Shown piece by piece: positions 6,345-11,274 of a stretch of 64,000 nt of DNA. The notes under the pieces were generated by a model that did no database searches, had not been told where the DNA came from, and saw nothing but the letters and a program-made list of their open reading frames with translations. Position numbers and translations under genes: made by a program. The DNA is from Actinoplanes lobatus. Its GTDB lineage: Bacteria; Actinomycetota; Actinomycetes; Mycobacteriales; Micromonosporaceae. Location: positions 315,001 to 379,000 of the forward strand of contig NZ_JACHNC010000001.1 of assembly GCF_014205215.1 (NCBI RefSeq). The letters run 5' to 3'. Positions within the stretch are counted from its first letter, which is position 1, and each line of letters begins with the position of its first letter.

Positions 6345-8150
6345 TCATCCGGCCGCGCGGTAAGCCTTTCCAGCTGCCGTGGGGCTGTCCGCATCGGTGT
6401 AGAGGCCGAAGTCGGCGCTGTCACCGACGGCCGGCAGCCCGAACCAGGCGTACCGCTCGACGTACGACCGTTTCTCCAGGCCCGCGGTGGCGCCGTTGAT
6501 GAACCGGACCTTCTGCGCGTCGCTCGGGTAGCGCGGCGTGCCGCCGAAATTGATCAGACCGAACTCGGTGACCCAGATCGGCTTGCCGTAGCGCTTGTGG
6601 ACGGTGTCGACGTAGCCGAGGAACTGGTTCACCGCGGCGGCGCTGAAGTCCGAGCCGTACCAGTGCAGGGCGATCGCGTCGACCCGCAGCCCCTTCGCCG
6701 CGGCGCCGGTCATGAACCGGTCGAGCCAGCCGCCGGCCGTGTCGCCGCCGAACGCGACGGCCGGGCTGACCAGCCTCATCCCGGTCGCTTCGAGGCGGGG
6801 CCAGGCGGCCAGCGCGGCCTCGACGGTCACGTTCGACTGCTCGGCCAGGTCCGGCTCGTTGAAGCCGAGCAGCACGTCGCCCTCGGCCTTCGCCCGCTTC
6901 AGGGTCGCGTCGGTGACATCGGCGGCGCCCCAGATCATCGGCACGAACTCGACGCCGGCCGGGCCGGGCACCTCGTCGTCGGCCGGTCCCCAGTCGTAGT
7001 ACCAGCCCGCGCCGACGTCCTTGAGCGCGCCCTTCGAACCGGCGAACTTCCACACCCCGGCGCCCTTCTTCGGCGAGCGGGCGGCGGGCACGGCGGTCGC
7101 CTTCCTCGACGGCGACTTCGTGGTGGGCACGGCCGAGGGCGACAGCGACGGCGCGGGAGAGGGCGCGGCCGGGGTGGTGGAGACCTCCGGTGCGGCGACG
7201 ACCGCCGCGGGTCTGGGCGGCTCCGCCGGTTCCCGGTACGTGTGAGCCAGCGCGCCGCCGCCCGTCACCAGGCCCGCGGCGAGCACCCCGGCCAGCACCT
7301 TCGACGTCACGGCGCCACCGGTCTTCACCGCCACCGTCGCGTTCGCGGCCGGCGTACCCGTACCGGAAAGGGTGTTGATCTGGATCTTGCCGAAGGCGGA
7401 GCCGAGGCCGGGCGGCAGCGGCACCAGCGCCATGCCGGCGAGCAGGCGCTCGGCCTCCACCATGTCCTGCCAGGCGGGCGCACACCGCCGGCAGTCGCGG
7501 GTGTGCCGGGCGATGCGTTTGCGCCAGAGCGGGCCGGGGCGCCCGTCCCAGCCGGACAGGGTCGCGGACAGCTCCGGGCAGCGCGGCGGGCGCAGCGCCC
7601 GGACCACCGCGCGGGCGGTCTCCAGCTGGCCCTTCATCCGCTGGATCCGGACCGCGGCGTGCTGGCGGCCCAGGCCGGTGGCCTCGACGATCTCGTCGCG
7701 GGTGAGTTCGCCGGACGCCTCCAGCCACCAGAGCGAGAGCAGTTCCCGGTTCTCCTCGTCGAGCCAGCGGGTCGCCTCGGCGGTCTCCCGGCGCTGTCCG
7801 GAGAGCTCCAGGCGGGTGATCGCCAGGTCGGTGAAGTCGGCGCCGGGATCGCGCAGCTCGGGATCCAGCTCCACGGCCGGCGGCCGGCTCCGGAAGCGCT
7901 CCCGCACCTGGCGCACGGTGATCGCGACCAGCCAGGAGCGGAACGCCGCCGGATCGCGCAGCTCGCCGAGGTTGCGCAGCACCCGGAGCATGACCTCCTG
8001 CACCACGTCGTCGGCGTCGGCGTGCCCCTCCAGTGCCCGGCCCACGATGGTGTAGACCAGCGGCAGGTAGCCGGCGACCAGGCGGTCGACCGCGGCCGGG
8101 TCGCCCGCGCGGGCGGCCGTCACGATCGCGATGCCGGGCTGTCGTGTCAT
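6345..8150 (-). CDS. ECF sigma factor fused to zinc-finger, membrane anchor and GH128-like glycoside hydrolase
   Basis: A 601-residue, four-part protein. Residues 1-185 are an ECF sigma factor. Region 2 contains ADADDVVQEVMLRVLRN and RSWLVAITVRQVRERFR; region 4 contains LTRDEIVEATGLGRQHAAVRIQRM. Residues 190-225 form a ZAS-like zinc finger (C191, H216, C220, C223; the HTRDCRRC motif). Residues about 283-303 are one hydrophobic helix. A Pro/Ser/Thr/Ala-rich spacer of about 60 residues follows. Residues 365-601 resemble the Asl1/GH128 glycosyl-hydrolase core, with candidate catalytic Glu in GFNEPD (E432) and in IWVTEFG. The expected topology is sigma inside and hydrolase outside. A good ribosome site (GAAGGG) precedes the ATG. 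The architecture suggests a membrane-tethered regulator that senses or cuts glucan. Release by proteolysis is a hypothesis. Confidence 0.85.
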   Translation of the reverse strand: MTRQPGIAIVTAARAGDPAAVDRLVAGYLPLVYTIVGRALEGHADADDVVQEVMLRVLRNLGELRDPAAFRSWLVAITVRQVRERFRSRPPAVELDPELRDPGADFTDLAITRLELSGQRRETAEATRWLDEENRELLSLWWLEASGELTRDEIVEATGLGRQHAAVRIQRMKGQLETARAVVRALRPPRCPELSATLSGWDGRPGPLWRKRIARHTRDCRRCAPAWQDMVEAERLLAGMALVPLPPGLGSAFGKIQINTLSGTGTPAANATVAVKTGGAVTSKVLAGVLAAGLVTGGGALAHTYREPAEPPRPAAVVAAPEVSTTPAAPSPAPSLSPSAVPTTKSPSRKATAVPAARSPKKGAGVWKFAGSKGALKDVGAGWYYDWGPADDEVPGPAGVEFVPMIWGAADVTDATLKRAKAEGDVLLGFNEPDLAEQSNVTVEAALAAWPRLEATGMRLVSPAVAFGGDTAGGWLDRFMTGAAAKGLRVDAIALHWYGSDFSAAAVNQFLGYVDTVHKRYGKPIWVTEFGLINFGGTPRYPSDAQKVRFINGATAGLEKRSYVERYAWFGLPAVGDSADFGLYTDADSPTAAGKAYRAAG

Positions 8151-8275: not shown

Positions 8276-9484
8276 GTGATCGCCGACGTGGATGAGACGG
8301 TGCGTTACACCTACCGCCTGCGGCCCGGCCGTCAGGCGCGGGCCGCGCTGCTCGACGAGTGGGGCCGCTGCCGCTGGTTGTGGAACGAGGCCGTGCACCA
8401 GCAAAAGTCCGGCCGCAAGCCGACGTTCGGGAAGCTGTCGACATTGCTGACCGAGGCCCGGGGCGGTAACGCCTGGCTGCGGGCCGGGTCGCAGGTCGCC
8501 CAGCAGCAGACGCTGCGCACCTACGGAACCGCCCTGACCCACTCGTTCAAGGTCAAGGGCCGGGGCCGTCCGAAGAAGAAGCGCAAGAAGGACGCGCTGC
8601 CCAGCCTGGAGTACACCACTCGCGGTTTTCGGATCAAGGACGGGCGGTTGCGCCTGCCGAACAAGGTCACCGTGCCGGTCGTCTGGTCCCGGCAGCTGCC
8701 GTGCGACCCGACCAGCGTGCGGGTCTACCAGGACAGCCTCGGCCACTGGTATGCGTCGTTCGTGGTCACCCGCGAGCAGGCCGCCGTCCCGGATCCGGAC
8801 CTGCCGGGCATCGGCGTGGACTGGGGCGTGAAGACCACCGCCACCACCACCGACCCGGCTTTCGACCTGCCGCACCTCGGCCACCGGCGCCGTTCTGCCG
8901 CCGAGCTGGCGAAAGCGCAGCGCAGGATGGCCCGCCGTCGCCGGCCGAAGAACCAGACCCCGTCGAAGGGCTACCAGCAGGCCAAGAAGCAGGCCGCCCG
9001 GATCGCGAAGAAGGCGGCCCGACAGAACACCCACGACGCCCGCGTCTGGGCGAAGAACGTCACCGCGCATCACAGCCTGATCGCCGTGGAGGACTTCAAG
9101 CCGAAGTTCCTTGCGAAGTCCCGGATGGCCCGTAAGGCCGCCGACGCCGCGATCGGCGCAGCGAAGCGAGAACTTGTCGAGCGTGGCAAGCGGGCGGGCC
9201 GGAAGGTGGTGCTGGTACCGCCCGCCTACACCACGATGACCTGCTCCGAGTGCGGCGAGAGAGCCAATCACCGCCTCGGACTGGGCGTAAGAGTCTTCGA
9301 GTGCCCGGCCTGCGGATACACCGCCTGCCGCGACCTCAACGCCGCGAGGACGATCCTCGCCACGGCTGAACGCGACCGTGCCAGTGCCGACGACGTCAGA
9401 CATCAGATCGCCTCCTTCCGGGAGCGTGGATCAGGTGCGGTCCGAGCTGGGAATCCCCCGGATTCATCCGCAGGGAGTCGTTAA
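8276..9484 (+). CDS. tnpB: TnpB, RNA-guided endonuclease of an IS200/IS605-type element
   Basis: A 402-residue TnpB that looks complete. The N-terminal WED/REC-like part (YRLRPGRQARAALLDEWGRC) is followed by the RuvC core. The acidic residues are D182 (GIGVDWGVKTT), E272 (IAVEDFKP) and D353 (CRDLNAARTI). The zinc ribbon has Cys 323/326 (CSECG) and 343/346 (CPACG). A very basic segment lies at 205-250. All catalytic residues are present, so nuclease activity is plausible. TnpB uses an RNA transcribed from the 3' end of its own gene and the flanking DNA to cut the donor site and keep the element in place. It starts with GTG at 8276; a second GTG at 8288 is possible. Confidence 0.9.
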   Translation: MIADVDETVRYTYRLRPGRQARAALLDEWGRCRWLWNEAVHQQKSGRKPTFGKLSTLLTEARGGNAWLRAGSQVAQQQTLRTYGTALTHSFKVKGRGRPKKKRKKDALPSLEYTTRGFRIKDGRLRLPNKVTVPVVWSRQLPCDPTSVRVYQDSLGHWYASFVVTREQAAVPDPDLPGIGVDWGVKTTATTTDPAFDLPHLGHRRRSAAELAKAQRRMARRRRPKNQTPSKGYQQAKKQAARIAKKAARQNTHDARVWAKNVTAHHSLIAVEDFKPKFLAKSRMARKAADAAIGAAKRELVERGKRAGRKVVLVPPAYTTMTCSECGERANHRLGLGVRVFECPACGYTACRDLNAARTILATAERDRASADDVRHQIASFRERGSGAVRAGNPPDSSAGSR

Positions 9485-9486: not shown

Positions 9487-9619
9487 CTGCTCCTGCCCTC
9501 CGGGCGCGGGTCGCACCGATGAGGGAGACGGGCCGCGGGCACCATGGATAACACGTTTCGGCGCCGTGATCACCATTCGGCCGTGGTTAGCCGGACGGCG
9601 GATCGGGCACAGAAAAGTC

Positions 9620-10012
9620 ATGCGCATGTCGGTCCGGCTCAATCTGCCCCGCGAGGTGGACAGCGTTCCGGCGGTGCGCCGCCTGTTGCGTTGCGCCCTG
9701 ACGATCCTGCGAGTGGATCGCCAGGCCGGCGCGGATCTGGAGATCGCCCTGACCGAGGCGTGCGCCAACGTGGTGAAGCACGCGGCCGGGGCGGAGAACT
9801 TCGAGGTGCACCTCGACGTGGGTGAGGACCGCTGCTCCATCGACGTGGTGGACGACGGCACCGGTTTCGATCCCGCGGTGGACGCCGTTCCGTCGGCGGC
9901 GAGCGAGCGGGGTCGTGGCCTCTTCCTGATCCGGGCGCTGGGCGAGAACGTGCGCATGCAGTCGGGCCCGCGCACCGGGAGCCTGATCCACTTCGAGAAG
10001 TCCTTCGCCTGA
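9620..10012 (+). CDS. HATPase-domain anti-sigma regulatory factor (RsbW/SpoIIAB-like)
   Basis: About 130 residues from the ATG at 9620 and almost entirely one GHKL ATPase domain. The N box is ALTEACANVVKHA, the G1 box VVDDGTGFDP and the G2 box ERGRGLFLIRALG. These single-domain kinases bind a sigma factor or phosphorylate an STAS-domain antagonist in partner switching. The SpoIIE-type phosphatase 120 bp downstream would be the opposing enzyme. No sigma factor or STAS antagonist is adjacent, so its partners lie elsewhere. Earlier in-frame starts (from 9566) give a short basic N-terminus not typical of the family; GAAAAG lies near the chosen ATG, and another ATG follows at 9626. Confidence 0.8.
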   Translation: MRMSVRLNLPREVDSVPAVRRLLRCALTILRVDRQAGADLEIALTEACANVVKHAAGAENFEVHLDVGEDRCSIDVVDDGTGFDPAVDAVPSAASERGRGLFLIRALGENVRMQSGPRTGSLIHFEKSFA

Positions 10013-10050
10013 GGTAGCGGGTATCGCGCCGGGCCACCCGCACGGGGGGT

Positions 10051-10080
10051 GGTTCCGGCGCGAATTGCTTGCCGTATAAC
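10051..10080 (+). promoter_or_regulatory. Putative promoter of the SpoIIE-phosphatase gene
   Basis: GGTTCC at 10051-10056 and TATAAC at 10075-10080 are separated by 18 bases, 55 bases ahead of the start codon. The GGTT...GTAT pattern also resembles SigB-type promoters, which would suit a stress-response phosphatase. Read by eye only. Confidence 0.35.
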
Positions 10081-10134
10081 AAACACCTGTCGTTGTTGCC
10101 CGGTCGAACGTGACGTCGTGGAGAGGAGTCCGGA

Positions 10135-11274
10135 ATGTCCGATCAACCGGCGCCCCTCGGCTCGCTGCTGCGGGCCGCGCCGCCCGACCGGCTGCCCGAG
10201 GTGGCCGCCGAGCATCTGCGCCGCCATTACGCCGCCGGCGCCGTCGAGGTGCTGGTGCCCGACCTCACCTTCACCCGGCTGTCCCCGCTGCTCGGCCCGG
10301 ACGAGCACCCCGACGCCGCCGCGCTGCGCTGCTTCGGCAGCCAGCGTCCCGGCGCCGAGCGGGCCAACGGCGGCCCGGTCCGCCTGCACCTGCCGCTGAG
10401 CTGCTGGGGCGAGCGGGTCGGGGTGCTGCGCCTCGAACTGCCCGAGAGGCCCGGCGGGGATCTCGGCGACCGGCTCGCCGCCGACGCCGACGAACTCGCC
10501 ACCGCGCTGCGCGCCGCCTCGCCCGCAACCGACCGCTACCGGCGGGCGCAGCGGCGGGCCCGGCTCACGATGGCCGCCGAGCTGCAGTGGGACCTGCTGC
10601 CCGGGCGGTCCCTCGGCGACGAGCGGTTCCTCATCGCGGGTCAGCTGGAGCCGGCGTACGACGTGCGCGGCGACCACTTCGACTGGGCCCTCGACGGCGA
10701 CCGGCTGACCGTCACGGTGCTCAACGGCTGCGGCGACGGGATGGAGGCCGCCCTGCTCACCTCGCTGGCGGTCAACGCCATGCGCAACGCCCGCCGGTGC
10801 GGCGCCGACATCGTGGAGCAGGCCGAGCTGGCCTCCGACGCGGTGCACTCCCGGTACGGCGGCGCCCTGCACACCGCCACGCTGCTCCTGGAGATCGACC
10901 TGGTCGGCGGTGGGGTGGCCGCCGTGGACGCCGGTTCGCCGCACTGCCTGGTCGCCCGCGGCGGCGGGACCGAGAGGGTCCCGCTGGAGGAGCAGCTGCC
11001 GCTCGGCATGTTCGGCGAGGCGCACTACGAGATCCAGCGGTTCCGGCTGGAGCCGGGTGACCGGATGCTCGTGGTCAGTGACGGCGTCCACTCGGCCACA
11101 CCCCGCGGGCTCGCCCGGTACGGCGCGTCCGCCCTGTTCAGCGCGGTTCGCCGGACACGGTTGCAGCCCGCCACCGAGGCGGTGGGTACGGTGATGAGGG
11201 GCCTGCGCGACTATCACGCCGGCGCCGAGCCGGAGGATGACGCCGTGACCGTCTGCCTGGACTGGCGACGCTGA
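10135..11274 (+). CDS. SpoIIE/RsbU-type PP2C serine phosphatase
   Basis: A 379-residue protein. Residues 20-125 form a divergent GAF-like sensor region. A short coiled segment (RYRRAQRRARLTMAAELQWDLLP) then leads into the PP2C/SpoIIE catalytic domain. Metal-site motifs are altered but recognisable: VRGDHFDW for the usual VGGDxYD, NGCGDGMEAALL for the GHG loop, VVSDGVHSATP and PEDDAVTVCLD. The family dephosphorylates STAS-domain anti-anti-sigma factors and so frees sigma factors from the HATPase kinase, whose candidate is encoded immediately upstream. A strong ribosome site (GAGAGGAG) precedes the ATG. Confidence 0.87.
   Translation: MSDQPAPLGSLLRAAPPDRLPEVAAEHLRRHYAAGAVEVLVPDLTFTRLSPLLGPDEHPDAAALRCFGSQRPGAERANGGPVRLHLPLSCWGERVGVLRLELPERPGGDLGDRLAADADELATALRAASPATDRYRRAQRRARLTMAAELQWDLLPGRSLGDERFLIAGQLEPAYDVRGDHFDWALDGDRLTVTVLNGCGDGMEAALLTSLAVNAMRNARRCGADIVEQAELASDAVHSRYGGALHTATLLLEIDLVGGGVAAVDAGSPHCLVARGGGTERVPLEEQLPLGMFGEAHYEIQRFRLEPGDRMLVVSDGVHSATPRGLARYGASALFSAVRRTRLQPATEAVGTVMRGLRDYHAGAEPEDDAVTVCLDWRR

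Follow-up and report, generated by a model that had tools for sequence, protein, structure and literature searches.

Which signal would a sigma factor read through a glycoside hydrolase placed outside the cell, and which genes would it switch on in response? The question is raised by one gene in the 64,000-nt stretch of Actinoplanes lobatus DNA analysed here (the window), whose single reading frame runs from an ECF sigma factor through a zinc anti-sigma-like module, a predicted membrane segment and a linker to a GH128 domain (Table 1). Our reading, to which we assign a probability of roughly two in three from sequence comparisons, is that the product is a single-chain transmembrane switch, in which the outer GH128 domain would sense beta-1,3-glucan and the sigma part would drive its own gene together with glucanase genes.

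Table 1. Features of the locus, in window coordinates, with the basis of each assignment
Feature	Position	Strand	Basis
Whole fused gene, 601 aa: ECF sigma, zinc anti-sigma-like module, membrane segment, linker, GH128	6345..8150	-	
Sigma region 2, residues 24-89	7884..8081	-	Pfam PF04542; AlphaFold helices 18-88
Putative sigma region 4, residues 118-186	7593..7799	-	TIGR02937 span 20-177; AlphaFold helices 118-186
Predicted zinc anti-sigma-like module, residues 191-238 (C191, H216, C220, C223)	7437..7580	-	Conservation; AlphaFold helices 192-238
Predicted single membrane segment, residues 281-303	7242..7310	-	Hydropathy; AlphaFold shows no helix
Pro/Ser/Ala-rich linker, residues 304-361	7068..7241	-	14 Pro in 305-362; pLDDT <50 to 355
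GH128 subgroup-I domain (predicted beta-1,3-glucanase), residues 359-601	6348..7076	-	
E432 (NEPD), candidate catalytic Glu	6855..6857	-	Aligns with E102 of AmGH128_I, offset 330
E529 (WVTEF), candidate catalytic Glu	6564..6566	-	Aligns with E199 of AmGH128_I
Predicted own promoter, GTTATC-N17-GTCTCC	9524..9552	-	No second exact match in the 10.4 Mb genome
IS605-type tnpB-only element between promoter and sigma start codon	8157..9487 (approximate)	+	Other genomic copies
tnpB gene of the IS605-type element	8276..9484	+	Pfam Cas12f1-like_TNB and OrfB_IS605

Domain architecture of the fused protein

The ORF at 6345-8150 begins with ATG on the minus strand and encodes 601 aa with no internal stops. 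The one-chain architecture is confirmed: sigma factor and GH128 domain share one intact frame, as the initial annotation had claimed, and the fusion is kept in relatives. That the transcription-factor part is an ECF sigma factor also holds, since NCBIfam TIGR02937 (sigma70-ECF) matches residues 20-177 with 58.2 bits against a curated cut-off of 42.9, and Pfam Sigma70_r2 (PF04542) matches residues 24-89 with 52.4 bits against a cut-off of 24 (E 4.7e-14). Sigma region 4 had no Pfam match up to E 1 in the 601-aa protein. Among the structure matches listed, which mostly concern the GH128 domain and so barely probe the sigma part, the best sigma entry is SigW of the SigW/RsiW complex (5wuq, E 2.3e-4).

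The predicted zinc motif consists of H216-x3-C220-x2-C223 plus C191, and its three cysteines are the only ones in the protein. H216, C220 and C223 are invariant in all 71 aligned rows (the window's protein and 70 loci, see below) and C191 in 70, with one gap; this conservation speaks for the zinc module that had been proposed, although no zinc-finger model matched the protein in Pfam up to E 1. The single membrane helix of the initial annotation is favoured by hydropathy, with Kyte-Doolittle values of at least 1.6 in 68 of the 71 rows (median 1.93) and a mean net charge of +2.3 before and -0.3 after the segment, so that the missing helix named there as a refuting result did not come about. The predicted helix is weak in the window's own protein, however, where the best 19-mer around residues 281-303 has a borderline mean of 1.63, and the AlphaFold model forms no helix there, residues 241-355 including the segment having pLDDT below 50. 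The segment is joined to the GH128 domain by nothing more than the Pro-rich linker, about 58 residues long, and Pfam returned no third family in the protein up to E 1.

Pfam Glyco_hydro_cc matches residues 380-597 of the outer domain (E 7.1e-52), which has the same fold as AmGH128_I (6uaq) and is 57% identical to it over 240 residues. E432 and E529 fall on E102 and E199 of that enzyme, the positions changed in its deposited mutants (E102A; E199Q and E199A), and are invariant in 71 of 71 rows, in agreement with the GH128-like domain with two candidate catalytic glutamates first noted at this locus. By way of these AmGH128_I residues, we take E432 to be the acid/base and E529 the nucleophile. 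The conservation of both glutamates rules out a degenerate GH domain as far as the catalytic residues are concerned.

Conservation of the fusion

The three nearest proteins, all from other Actinoplanes, are 90-95% identical over their full length, and sigma and GH128 parts occupy a single ORF at 70 of 79 distinct loci, a set that represents the best of 360 relatives from a scan of genome contigs and is thus biased to full-length matches. Because of this full-length conservation and the 70 fused loci, a chance fusion or a sequencing error is ruled out; the initial annotation had warned both of an error joining two genes and of a fusion missing from close relatives, and neither came true.

The nine remaining loci comprise seven with GH128 and no sigma part, of which one (L079) begins at a contig end and may have its sigma part missing from the data, one with a broken frame (L070) and one that is split (L082). 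At the split locus, a single ORF encodes zinc motif, membrane stretch and GH128, and another ORF upstream of it encodes the sigma part; the locus was scored as a fusion on a 17-residue match and is counted among the 71 aligned rows and in the promoter count below. The alignment does not contain L070, the seven GH-only loci or L087, which has both sigma and GH128 and a long upstream extension.

Among the genera that have the fusion are Actinoplanes, Cellulomonas, Sanguibacter, Lentzea, Umezawaea and Actinosynnema, as well as Asanoa, Nonomuraea, Herbidospora and Streptosporangium. Distances between sigma parts correlate closely with distances between GH parts (Mantel r 0.948 over 70 rows, with 0 of 500 permutations as high), which indicates that both halves travelled together.

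The predicted promoter and its interruption

The stretches upstream of the orthologues share GTTATC-N16/17-GTCTCC, a motif that was derived from the upstream regions of the sigma-GH128 family, other targets coming afterwards. With GTCTCC or ATCTCC allowed and no control set, 64 of 71 relatives have it with at most one mismatch and 69 with at most two; in those with at most one, its median distance upstream of the start is 42 nt. One-mismatch sites in this genome (N16 spacing only) number 27 vs 3 for the control, six of the 27 being inside or at copies of a tnpB element.

The window itself holds such an element between the predicted promoter and the sigma gene: about 1.37 kb separate the end of the motif, which is antisense to tnpB, from the sigma start codon, and the sigma ORF is intact. 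At the corresponding locus of A. flavus (L010), whose protein is 94% identical, the site is empty, and promoter, ribosome-binding stretch and ATG sit in one short leader. At least nine near-full copies of the element, including the window's, and several end fragments besides are present in the genome, a lower bound obtained from 40 scored candidates out of 348. Since the element separates promoter from gene, autoregulation may be weakened or lost in this strain.

Divergent from the sigma gene, window positions 9566-11274 carry genes for an RsbW-like ATPase and a SpoIIE phosphatase, and the start of the ATPase gene can be recognised by eye upstream of the orthologue in several Actinoplanes.

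Genes that share the promoter in Actinoplanes

Across the window's genus, taken as Actinoplanes in the wide sense judged from the closest named proteins, the exact motif occurs at 141 places in 60 of 60 genomes, compared with 4 for the reversed pattern. We classed the next gene at each place by blastp against four references, after removal of two duplicate sites, and obtained 53 copies of the sigma gene itself (52 direct, plus the window's with the tnpB element between), 25 GH16 genes, 22 SARP genes, 12 DUF1996 genes and 29 others. Ten next ORFs of this last class were scanned, and one encodes a GH64 beta-1,3-glucanase with CBM6; the 29 sites of the class are counted as unexplained or unrelated.

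The 25 GH16 proteins share 52-100% identity with the GH16 protein of L147. That protein carries a ricin-type lectin domain, and its best relatives of solved structure are glucanases, most of which go by the name beta-1,3-glucanase or laminarinase. A GH16 relative was found in 60 of 60 genomes. When one best match per genome is counted, so that second copies with a site (e.g. L207) fall outside, the motif is present with at most two mismatches in 35 of the 60, its end always 67-75 nt upstream of the matched start, and the other 25 have three or more mismatches; 1.4% of 3000 random windows, drawn from the flanks of L010-L041, which contain the own promoter, reach two mismatches or fewer. The GH16 gene of this genome has GTTATC-N17-GTCGGC at the same place, a -10 variant with two mismatches. 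Between -35 and -10, 27 of the 35 GH16 promoters within two mismatches (L307-L366, counted by eye) carry TTCCGGAA, which may be an operator for another regulator.

To our knowledge, neither SARP nor DUF1996 genes are known beta-glucan genes. The 22 SARP-type genes encode BTAD/AAA regulators (e.g. L144-L146, L154-L155), and their spacers are often identical or nearly so. In this genome, the motif was absent in front of the DUF1996 genes, two two-mismatch matches lying elsewhere in the regions examined, and DUF1996 was accordingly rejected as a target in this strain. A separate arrangement is seen at L389:1885-5924 (G000:C1 near 8236000), where a DUF1996-F5/8C gene stands directly after a GH16-F5/8C gene and before one for a LacI-type regulator; it forms a second link between DUF1996 and beta-glucan. 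The proposed switch would give bacterial DUF1996 proteins a possible functional context.

The motif in other genera

In 12 genomes of the Lentzea group, where only the ATCTCC form was searched, the pattern occurs 19 times and the control 0 times, before the own sigma gene (11 sites), DUF1996 genes (6) and other genes (2). The DUF1996 proteins of this group are 34-37% identical to the Actinoplanes reference, and one of the 12 genomes, that of L055, has the GTCTCC form. Fourteen genomes of other genera contain the exact motif 17 times, with one control match, and the sites precede the own gene in 11 cases, F5/8C-GH128 genes in two, a DUF1996 gene in one and other genes in three. Both F5/8C-GH128 genes, in Nonomuraea (L060) and Streptosporangium (L068), adjoin the sigma gene and have the motif 206 and 354 nt, respectively, before the chosen start codon; their proteins begin with an apparent signal peptide, judged by eye. 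A possible short leader ORF starting MATR lies between promoter and GH128 gene in each (L060:13400-13730, L068:9300-9770). Members of three beta-1,3-glucanase families (GH16, GH64 and GH128) thus have the same promoter motif as a sigma factor with an outer domain from just such a family.

Paralogues with other outer domains

At E 0.001 or below, the genome holds 12 matches to the query, the query itself included, and four further proteins (L002-L005) have the same frame with a different outer domain: a right-handed beta-helix in L002, AbfB in L003 and L004, and Lcl_C in L005. A gap of 4 nt separates the start of L004 from a preceding GH43-AbfB gene; sensor and enzyme therefore have an accessory domain in common and are probably encoded in one operon. 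L005 (1468-2751; G000:C1 near 1998150) aligns with query residues 119-349, from region 4 through the membrane segment, ends in Lcl_C and, as called, has no sigma region 2; it is possibly a regulator without promoter melting, or its start is wrongly called. No exact copy of GTTATC-N16/17-GTCTCC precedes L002-L005, nor was one seen by eye in their 250-nt upstream stretches or upstream of AbfB-type orthologues (6 of the 18 loci passing the frame test). A promoter common to all the paralogues is thus not supported, the exact motif occurring once in the genome.

Proposed mechanism and alternative readings

At rest, the sigma domain would be held at the membrane and masked by the fused zinc anti-sigma-like module; this masking, and the release that would follow, we infer by likeness to ECF52/ECF53, ECF243 and RsgI proteins. 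The outer GH128 domain would bind, and probably cut, beta-1,3-glucan of fungal, plant or bacterial origin, whereupon regulated proteolysis at or near the membrane segment would free the sigma part to transcribe its own gene and beta-1,3-glucanase genes from GTTATC-N16/17-GTCTCC. The enzymes made, presumably secreted, would be the GH16 protein with its ricin-type lectin domain in Actinoplanes and GH64 and GH128 proteins in single or few relatives, with the SARP-type regulator and DUF1996 proteins as further putative targets. Beta-1,3-glucan is the probable ligand because of the GH128 domain and the shared promoters. The earlier guess at beta-glucan thus draws strength from the promoter common to GH16, GH64 and GH128 beta-1,3-glucanase genes, while the ligand itself stays a prediction, and the first interpretation of the fusion is, as a whole, partly supported.

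The GH128 domain may instead be a lectin-like binder whose catalysis is a relic without part in signalling, a possibility that we regard as real without favouring it. Very low activity with binding retained is reported for the GH10 domain of RsgI6 (PMC4711584), and in paralogues from the same genome AbfB or beta-helix domains take the place of GH128; a mere binder is harder to reconcile with the alignment of E432 and E529 to residues mutated in an enzyme 57% identical, or with the invariance of both glutamates and of Y498 in the 71 rows, where conservation of H496 and W497 reaches at least 97%. We offer more tentatively, as somewhat doubtful, the proposal that substrate turnover by a working glucanase, and not mere binding, frees a sigma factor that induces the same enzyme class, with the paralogues as a plug-in family. 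If that were true, each outer domain (GH128, AbfB, beta-helix) would set both the polysaccharide read and the enzymes made.

It is unlikely, in our estimate, that another sigma factor or regulator reads the motif and that this protein is connected with the glucanases only indirectly. The 12 query matches in the genome provide candidate readers, and TTCCGGAA in most GH16 spacers fits an additional regulator, but the four paralogous genes have no exact motif in front and the own and DUF1996 promoters of the Lentzea group both take the ATCTCC form. Moreover, ECF sigma factors commonly regulate their own gene.

Quite improbable is a ligand made by the cell itself, such as the extracellular polysaccharide of the sporangium matrix, with a role in development and not in feeding or mycolysis. 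In Actinoplanes missouriensis, glycoside hydrolases secreted by the bacterium dissolve the sporangium matrix (PMC12691653), the ECF52 member SCO4117 controls development (PMC5826349), and the SARP-type regulator has the shared promoter at 22 places. Against this, PMC12691653 also has GimA and GimB activated by TcrA, the promoter-sharing enzymes match beta-1,3-glucanase families, and the fusion extends beyond Actinoplanes to Cellulomonas, Sanguibacter and Lentzea. The Gim hydrolases (PMC12691653) and the SsdA/SipA sigma system of A. missouriensis were set aside as different systems.

Least probable of all, and very much so, is a protein that acts mainly as a surface-anchored glucanase with a constitutive or expression-setting sigma part and little sensing, for which complete active-site residues and an own-gene promoter would suffice to raise the enzyme dose, but which sits badly with an invariant zinc motif, with sigma and GH parts that co-vary over 70 sequences, and with paralogues that swap the outer domain and keep the frame, as fits a sensor slot.

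Comparison with known systems

The architecture belongs to an already described kind. Some ECF52/ECF53 proteins have predicted GH and carbohydrate-binding domains, experimental validation lacking, according to a 2024 review (PMC10766802), so that the precedent named in the initial annotation, with fused zinc finger, membrane helix and predicted carbohydrate or GH domains, is found in print. These actinobacterial proteins, of which SCO4117 is the studied ECF52 member, resemble the present one in that a single chain joins an ECF sigma factor and a zinc anti-sigma-like module to an outer domain related to carbohydrates; both the fused zinc motif and such an outer domain (GH128) are present here. 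Their one or two membrane helices would have a counterpart in the single predicted segment. They differ in that the accessible text names no GH128 member, glucanase promoter or ligand. Among the literature matches listed, titles and abstract openings describe no such promoter, glucanase regulon or GH128-bearing sigma factor, and the portion of PMC10061750 at hand mentions GH128 only as the enzyme of its fungal member. AmGH128_I (6uaq) shares the fold and both catalytic glutamates, whereas here the domain is tethered to a sigma factor via the membrane segment. Single-chain ECF sigma factors of the IutY type (ECF243) likewise have a transmembrane regulatory extension and are freed by proteolysis (Prc, RseP); their signal, in contrast, is a siderophore (aerobactin), and the part of the source available mentions no GH domain.

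There is also a functional likeness to SigI6/RsgI6 and the other SigI/RsgI pairs of Clostridium thermocellum, in which an outer GH or CBM domain senses polysaccharide and SigI6 regulates itself and xylanase genes, much as in the circuit proposed here. Those systems consist of two separate proteins from other sigma and anti-sigma families with an autoproteolytic periplasmic domain, in place of the single 601-aa ORF, and the weakly active GH10 of RsgI6 contrasts with the conserved active-site residues of GH128. A predicted ligand, a precise promoter and a short target list turn what was a domain curiosity into a testable system. If our reading of a glucan-sensing switch is right, it bears on how soil actinomycetes detect and lyse fungi, offers a starting point for made-to-order polysaccharide sensors, and gives actinobacteria a one-chain equivalent of the RsgI biomass sensors of clostridia.
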